Source: Bacteroidota bacterium
GTDB lineage: Bacteria; Bacteroidota; Bacteroidia; AKYH767-A; 2013-40CM-41-45
DNA length: 52,378 bases
NCBI GenBank assembly: GCA_026391945.1
Contig: JAPLDA010000055.1
Span: forward strand, 1-52,378
Direction: 5' to 3'
The position numbers were made by a program, and so were the translations under genes. Below, piece after piece: positions 50,738 to 52,378 of this stretch. Within the stretch, counting starts at the first letter, position 1, and each line of letters starts with the position of its first letter. The notes below the pieces were generated by a model. That model was given only the letters and a program-made list of their open reading frames with translations. It did no database searches and was not told the DNA's origin.

Positions 50738-51991
50738 GGTAAAATATTCGCTGTACTTTTTCTTTTCCTTTTAATTATCAGATTAAATAACAACCTCTAT
50801 GCGCGCGTTAATGATTATCCTATTCTTAATGCTTCAATAAATAAAATCAAGAATTATCACTTCCTGAACTATACCGAAATTGAACTGTATGCATTGCTTG
50901 TTAATAAGCTTGAAAGGGTCTTTAAATTAGGAATAAAAACAGACACATCCGGTAAATATCTCATTATTTATTTTCATGAAAAGAAATTTAAACTATCAAA
51001 CGATGGTAAGAATAAGCTTAATGAGTTCTGTGACTACTTAAAACCCATTGTTCTGAACATATTTAACAAATCTGATCAGACTGCTGAACTCAACTATGAT
51101 TTTTATCTTTCTAACATGCTTGCGGCTGATATTGACAGCAAAATATTTGACAATAAAGTATATAAATTTTATGAGGAACGCCGGGATAGTTGCCAGGATT
51201 TTAAAATAAATAAAAACAATGATTTTGTTATATCGGAAAACGGACTGGATAATAAAGGTAATCTAGCACTTGCCGAAACTAAAATAATTGGTGTAAACAA
51301 TATTCCAATTGATTATTTTACAGTGGAAGCCCTACGGAAATTCCTGTTTGACAATAATAATCACAATCCTCAATTTAATCTCATTGACAATAATGAAATC
51401 GGTTTCAACACTTGTCATTTAAAAATAAAAAAAGAGAAGGAGGAGGGTTTTAGGATAGACAAGAATGGGATTTGCTACATTAAATACGTACCTAATTCTG
51501 GTTGGCCATTTAGTTACAATCTCCATGACCGATTATCGACCAACTGTCTCAACATAAAAAAAATAATTATTGATTTACGACATAGTTCTTTCGGGTCGAT
51601 ACGTGAGGCCATTGATATCGCTAATTTTTTTCTTCCTCAAGGTTTGCCATTGGCTGAATTAATTGGCAAAAACCAAGATACAACAAAATATGTTTCTTTG
51701 AATTACAACTTGTGTGAAAACACACCAATATTTTTATTTATCGATGAAGCGTCATCTGGAGCTGAAGAAATTTTAGCCCGTATCCTGCAGGAATATAAAC
51801 GGGCAACAATCATTGGTGAAAAAACAGATAGTAATGAGAAGATTCATAGAGCATTTGAATTAATGAATGATTATTATGTTAATATTTACATTGGGAACCT
51901 ACTAATTGTCAATAAATACAAATTAGGCGAGGACTTTGTTGTTCCAGACATCTATTCTGACCAACCCGATCCTGAAAAATTTATTAAGTAA
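50718..51991 (+). CDS. S41-family peptidase-like exported protein with apparent frameshift in the signal peptide
   Basis: The long frame (open from just after the gcvP stop to 51991) has no ATG, GTG or good start near its beginning, though its first codons encode a hydrophobic stretch FLFLLII. In another frame an ATG at 50718 gives [18 protein letters not shown] and stops at 50774. Adding one T in the T/C-rich run 50757-50772 joins both into a normal signal peptide. The C-terminal half is S41-like: [13 protein letters not shown], then [19 protein letters not shown] with the expected nucleophile Ser, and ATIIGEKT, with Lys nearby. It is much richer in A/T than gcvP, suggesting transfer. Whether the gene is broken, slips, or reflects a sequencing error cannot be told. 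The first in-frame TTG is at 50894. Confidence 0.65.
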
Positions 51992-52020
51992 TATGCAGGA
52001 CGAACGAATGAGTCCAATTC

Positions 52021-52160
52021 CCATGCTATCAGGTCTTCGCACGAAGGCATGAGGGAAGAGAGACCTGGCAGAGATTATCAGTGTTGGAATATAGTGTCAG
52101 GTTTCGCCAACTCACAAGCCTGGCGAGAATACACTACGAGAAACCTCCCTGGGTTAAGTG
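52021..52160. other. Strongly folded intergenic element with nested inverted repeats
   Basis: Two imperfect units each open with TCAGGT-type bases and close with CCTGGC. Unit 1: CAGGTCT (52030-52036) / AGACCTG (52061-52067), with CTTC/GAAG inside. Unit 2: TAGTGT (52092-52097) / ACACTA (52131-52136) enclosing TCGCCA (52104-52109) / TGGCGA (52121-52126). AGGTTTC (52099-52105) can also pair with GAAACCT (52140-52146), which crosses the TAGTGT stem as a pseudoknot would. No reading frame fits. It could be a structured RNA, a repeat element of the genome, or a recombination site. Confidence 0.5.
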
Positions 52161-52171
52161 CCATTATTTTT

Positions 52172-52179
52172 TATCTTTA
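52172..52179 (+). promoter_or_regulatory. -7-like box before the last gene
   Basis: TATCTTTA at 52172-52179 differs from TAnnTTTG only in its last base and lies 13 bp before the ATG at 52193. Confidence 0.4.
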
Positions 52180-52192
52180 CTAAAAACAAACC

Positions 52193-52378
52193 ATGTACGA
52201 ACGCGCAAAATATTTCAGTGGAAAATTTATTCGTAATGGCATTGCCGGTTTTTTCCTCAGTGGTATTTTCTTGTTTTCCTTTTCTAAAAACAAACCGTTG
52301 GTTCCTGTAGTTTTTGTTTTTCTTGTCGCTGCAACAGTTTGGCTTTACTTTGGAATGTTGATCAATAAAAAACTGAAA
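52193..52378 (+). CDS. Membrane protein of unknown function (C-terminus off the right edge)
   Basis: 62 codons from the ATG at 52193 to the edge, no stop. Two hydrophobic segments are visible (about residues 16-31, GIAGFFLSGIFLFSFS, and 37-55, VPVVFVFLVAATVWLYFG), with a basic N-terminus YERAKYFSGKFIRNG. No family recognised from this fragment. It follows the folded element by about 30 bp. Confidence 0.65.
   Translation, partial: MYERAKYFSGKFIRNGIAGFFLSGIFLFSFSKNKPLVPVVFVFLVAATVWLYFGMLINKKLK

Follow-up and report, generated by a model that had tools for sequence, protein, structure and literature searches.

Towards its end, the window, i.e., the whole stretch of 52,378 nucleotides that was analysed, contains a gene for a family S41 peptidase, an intergenic element composed of two units with short stems, and the start of a gene for a small membrane protein. 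The features of this region are arranged as follows.

50894–51991, + strand: upstream gene, peptidase family S41 (PF03572, E 3.4e-17).
52021–52076, + strand: unit 1, a copy of an imperfect palindrome of ~54 nt (very likely a REP-like repeat) in the canonical orientation.
52024–52026, + strand: TGC on the 5' side of the stem of unit 1, invariant in all 16 of the 16 aligned copies.
52030–52036 with 52061–52067, + strand: stem 1, CAGGTCT with AGACCTG, in unit 1; among 15 distinct copies, covariation is seen in the corresponding columns.
About 52092–52146, − strand: unit 2, a probable decayed inverted copy of the unit 1 repeat, which holds the crossing stems.
52092–52097 with 52131–52136: stem 2, TAGTGT with ACACTA, in unit 2.
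52099–52105 with 52140–52146: stem 3, AGGTTTC with GAAACCT, in unit 2.
52104–52109 with 52121–52126: stem 4, TCGCCA with TGGCGA, in unit 2.
52193–52378, + strand: start of the downstream gene, which encodes a small membrane protein without a Pfam match and is truncated where the contig ends.

The last 141 bp of the window (52238–52378) are identical to positions 1–141 of contig C25 (L274), at the start of that contig. The window contig and C25 very probably join, in which case the downstream membrane gene would end on C25. This gene was sought in 12 relatives and was found in 0 of the 12.

The count of perfect stems of 6 bp or longer within 52021–52160 is exactly four, each of them 6–7 bp in length, in agreement with the initial annotation of this DNA. 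The pair of mutually crossing stems that it described corresponds to TAGTGT/ACACTA and AGGTTTC/GAAACCT, and with regard to the TCAGG...CCTGGC ends said to be common to the two units, TCAGG starts both units and CCTGGC is present in both. The view that a terminator does not explain the element also holds, as the search for an intrinsic terminator, consisting of a GC-rich stem followed by a T tract, gave 0 sites in 51900–52300. On the other hand, the stem density is unremarkable: it is equalled in 28 of 1000 dinucleotide shuffles and in 48 of the 374 window tiles of 140 bp, and the number of stems in 52021–52160 is only modestly above chance.

The folding energy of the region from 51990 to 52200 (211 nt) is ordinary on both strands, with z values of −0.52 and +0.79. 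When the units are folded alone as RNA, unit 1 folds no better than its own shuffles (z of −0.12 and −0.91), and unit 2 folds somewhat better than its shuffles (z of −2.60 on the + strand and −1.15 on the − strand). The Rfam scan of the window gave 0 families at or above the gathering score. The structure by itself is insufficient to carry the finding, and it is homology that provides the real signal.

With 52000–52180 as the query, blastn against the own genome gave one further convincing match, at C64:15033–15088 (77% identity, E 4.8e-4), and the same type of search among 60 relatives gave one matching genome, G005 (E 0.001), where the matches in both C64 and G005 are confined to unit 1. A repeat model built from five copies, R1, assigns 65 bits to unit 1 of the window and matches the own genome at 2 places and G005 14 times. 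A second model, R2, was built from 16 copies as 16 aligned rows and has 54 positions; it assigns 59.3 bits to unit 1 (E 1.1e-12 per genome), which is itself among the training rows, and 46.1 bits to the C64 copy. In G005, R2 gives 17 matches at E ≤ 0.1, corresponding to 16 distinct places, 14 of which had already been used in the model. Clear long-type copies, as the repeat of unit 1 is termed here, were found with R2 in 2 of the 11 family genomes searched, and in the search across 247 phylum genomes, performed with stricter filters under which weak matches are lost, they were found in the own genome only.

The canonical repeat reads TGCTGTC(A/G)GGTCTTCG, followed by a loop of ~20–25 nt and then GAGACC(T/C)GACAG. 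The invariant TGC at its 5' end is a possible analogue of the REP tag. The arms of the repeat show the compensatory base changes that had been proposed as a check, and they covary across the copies: 91.8% of the cells in the stem are paired, compared with 30.7–47.3% when the partner is slid, and two-sided changes are found in 9 cells, compared with a shuffled mean of 2.9, where 0 of 500 shuffles reach 9. Covariation is clearest at columns 14/52 (GC 7, AU 5) and at columns 12/54 (UA 8, CG 2, UG 2, GC 1). One of the five covariation measures, the number of further pair types, is not above the shuffles. Of six G005 copies that were folded, four greatly exceed their shuffles in stability (z from −3.4 to −6.6), and the other two have z values of −1.8 and −2.3, whereas the window and C64 copies have no extra fold stability (z from −0.1 to −0.9). 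The weak folding of the latter two may reflect decay in their own genome.

All 14 of the placed copies, namely, those in the window, on C64, on C51 (three), on C93 (three), on C119 (four), on C192 and on C62, are intergenic, between frames taken as genes. A mechanically called frame of 220 aa on the opposite strand, which overlaps the C64 copy, was taken as spurious. The copies occur singly, as inverted pairs and as direct arrays, at unrelated places, an arrangement that gives no support to the site-specific recombination site included among the early candidates. An integron attC site, for which paired core sites near an integron integrase would be expected, was considered as well and was not adopted.

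The C64 copy is flanked by an ABC ATPase gene and a permease gene. The gap between these genes is 206 bp with the C64 copy, compared with 3–82 bp in 11 of the 11 relatives having both genes (13 genomes were searched, 12 of which have the ATPase, the own genome being counted among these). Part of the C64 gap is occupied by a tandem repeat whose imperfect units of 8 bp resemble GTATTGGA (L043 6920–7007). Because the extra length is partly this tandem repeat, the gap is regarded as one into which DNA has come, and not as the record of a single clean event; with regard to transposition, the comparison is only indirect.

Unit 2 has to be considered separately from unit 1. Its best local alignment to the copy on C85 of G005, in the opposite orientation, scores 35.5, which is higher than any of 2000 shuffles, and extends over ~50 nt with few gaps; when all references and both strands are taken together, 3 of 1000 shuffles reach the best score of unit 2. 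The R2 score of unit 2 is only 4.1 bits. Alignments in the direct orientation also exist and are weaker than the inverted one, and the assignment of unit 2 as a direct repeat was set aside on this lower score. Judged by these alignments, unit 2 is probably a decayed inverted partner of unit 1, and the two units would probably form a REPIN/BIME-like doublet, an assignment that is weaker than that of unit 1. An origin of unit 2 alone by chance is possible.

A clearer example of doublet organisation is found on C119 of G005, where two inverted pairs ~3 kb apart have a common repeat-spacer-repeat sequence with 12 differences in 138 columns, as counted by hand from the alignment. The similarity between the pairs ends sharply, its two limits being TTGCTGCC and CAGCAAATAA. 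This pattern is what the copying of a doublet as a single unit would look like.

The own genome also contains short hairpins, at least nine in number, whose foot is that of the long type, e.g., GTGCTGTCAGGTTTTCCAACCTGACAG; there are two on C23, three on C26, one on C28, two on C30 and one on C43, where one of the two on C30 has one arm off the consensus. Hairpins similar to the short type are found in another genome, G006. R2 matches the short hairpins weakly, because the foot is common to both types. From this common foot, the long and short types may be members of one superfamily. On C30 (L084 1380–1720), a T run and a repeat of the TTTCACGCAAAGTTCGCAAAG type come after each of the two short-type hairpins. 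G055, a genome of the same class, has a dispersed palindrome of another sequence, TCAGGTTTCGACA(A/G)GCTCAACCTGACA, which is listed at 13 places.

Searches over wider collections gave few matches. A strict pattern matched 5 of 395 phylum genomes, and the inner sequences of the matches outside the own genome look unrelated and were read as chance. Across the contig collection, the pattern matched 5 stretches including that of G005, and those from Anaerolineae, Cereibacter, Thermoplasmata and Reyranella were likewise read as chance. Two weak R2 matches in G084 did not resemble the repeat on visual inspection and were discarded. A blastn search for distant matches in plasmid and phage records gave no match. 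The viral scan gave 120 stretches with the first pattern, and R2 applied to 80 loci of these 120 gave one 20-bit match (E 0.02), which was attributed to chance, and the viral scan with the stricter pattern gave 0 matches. A literature search, with most subscription journals outside its scope, found no description of the studied repeat.

Together, these results make it very likely that 52021–52146 is a REP-like dispersed palindromic repeat, in which unit 1 is a copy and unit 2 most likely represents the inverted partner of unit 1 in decayed form. The dispersed repeat family that the initial annotation listed as one candidate is supported by the further copies, i.e., the second own copy on C64 and the 16 places in G005, by the covarying stem and by the short gap in the relatives. 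It should be borne in mind that the own genome has just two clear copies of the long type. As for the mechanism, a transposase that acts in trans may process the repeat units as single-stranded hairpins, and the units may spread in this way; they would then settle between genes, where the harm is small, and the settled units would decay. If transcription of the S41 gene reads through the hairpin, its presence in the mRNA might slow mRNA decay or might have no effect.

Judged by its sequence, the repeat would behave like a REP. We describe it as REP-like, and not as a demonstrated RAYT-REP, because it is without the GTAG tag and no copy is present at the 32 Y1 loci tested. That it is nevertheless a true RAYT-REP, mobilised by the Y1 transposase of the own genome, is unlikely. 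The size, the imperfect palindrome, the intergenic placement and the doublets would fit such an assignment, and the own genome has one intact Y1 transposase gene, on contig C58. However, the invariant 5' motif is TGC and not GTAG, and R2 gave no copy at 32 of the 32 tested Y1-transposase loci, consisting of the 30 best of a larger match set, the own C58 locus and the C209 locus of G005. Moreover, the C58 gene (L042 3050–3310) is flanked, by eye, by short repeats of the CCGAAGG type, which are unlike the studied repeat. A Y1 transposase is not supported as the partner of the repeat.

A second mobile element to be considered is the IS110 family, for which the repeats could be target sites or remnants that spread with, or were visited by, IS110; this is improbable. 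On C51 of G005 (L045 240–1900), an IS110 transposase gene (PF01548, PF02371) lies just before the repeat array, with the array of three and a half copies on one side and a similar-looking hairpin (about 243–308) on the other, and insertion of ISPpu9 into REPs has been described (PMC8450116). However, this is a single case, and by inspection the other placed copies have no recognised transposase among the listed ORFs.

It is improbable that the element is a cis-acting RNA element or a small RNA, possibly pseudoknotted, which controls the downstream membrane gene. Its position upstream of the start codon, the crossing stems and the somewhat stable hairpin of unit 2 (z of −2.60) would be consistent with such a role. 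However, the copies of unit 1 have unrelated genes as neighbours and are found in both orientations, and for this reason the riboregulator put forward in the initial annotation is disfavoured; in addition, the whole stretch folds like its shuffles and matches 0 Rfam families. No conserved pairing of the element with the gene is demonstrable, because the downstream gene is present in 0 of the 12 relatives. The suggested pseudoknot, which depends on one crossing stem pair in unit 2, a unit without a close relative, gains no support. A chance cluster of short stems without a history, with which the near-chance stem count and folding energy would agree, is barely credible in view of the sequence relatives in the own genome and G005 and the covarying stem, and it is refuted for unit 1.

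With the REP-like repeat as the preferred assignment, an odd folded spacer becomes a recognisable small dispersed repeat, and a lineage-restricted REP-like family is added that has neither a GTAG tag nor a known transposase. The repeat is of an ordinary kind, and its family, which is low in copy number, is apparently undescribed. A Bacteroidota REP-like superfamily with a TGC/GCTG tag, short (GTGCTGTCAGGTTTTCCAACCTGACAG) and long members, inverted doublets and an enzyme that is not a flanking Y1 transposase is a tentative and rather doubtful extension of this assignment. If the transposase is found, it would provide a test of how far single-stranded hairpin mobilisation reaches in Bacteroidota.

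REP and REPIN/BIME elements are described as short imperfect palindromes that are dispersed between genes, often as inverted doublets (PMC3116915, PMC6006769). The studied repeat is similar to them in that it is a short imperfect palindrome with a covarying stem, whose 54-position model is within about 20–65 nt, and in that its placement is extragenic in 14 of the 14 placed copies. As in REPINs, an inverted doublet behaves as one unit on C119 of G005, which is only probable in the window. However, in place of the GTAG (GT[AG]G) foot described for REPs, the repeat has TGC in 16 of 16 copies, and unlike the RAYT-REPs described in these sources, it flanks no Y1 gene at the 32 of 32 loci tested. 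The copy number is 2 of the long type and at least 9 of the short type in the own genome and 16 of the long type in G005, compared with the hundreds reported for known REPs.

Two groups described from Bacteroidetes were also compared. The CGTC-tagged REPs are described as palindromic, as also occurring in Bacteroidetes, and as having no dedicated flanking transposase (PMC3733652), and the studied repeat is similar to this description in all three points. However, its 5' motif is TGC/GCTG, and the alignment of 16 rows shows no CGTC at the 5' end, a comparison made at the level of the motif. The subclass 2.6 Y1 transposases of Bacteroidetes are described as having atypical flanking hairpins without GTAG, copies of which occur elsewhere in the genome (PMC6006769). 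Those hairpins flank a transposase gene according to this description, whereas the studied repeat is present at 0 of the 32 tested Y1 loci. Nevertheless, the studied repeat is found in the same phylum and is likewise without the GTAG consensus, and, compared by description, identity of these hairpins with the short or the long type is possible.
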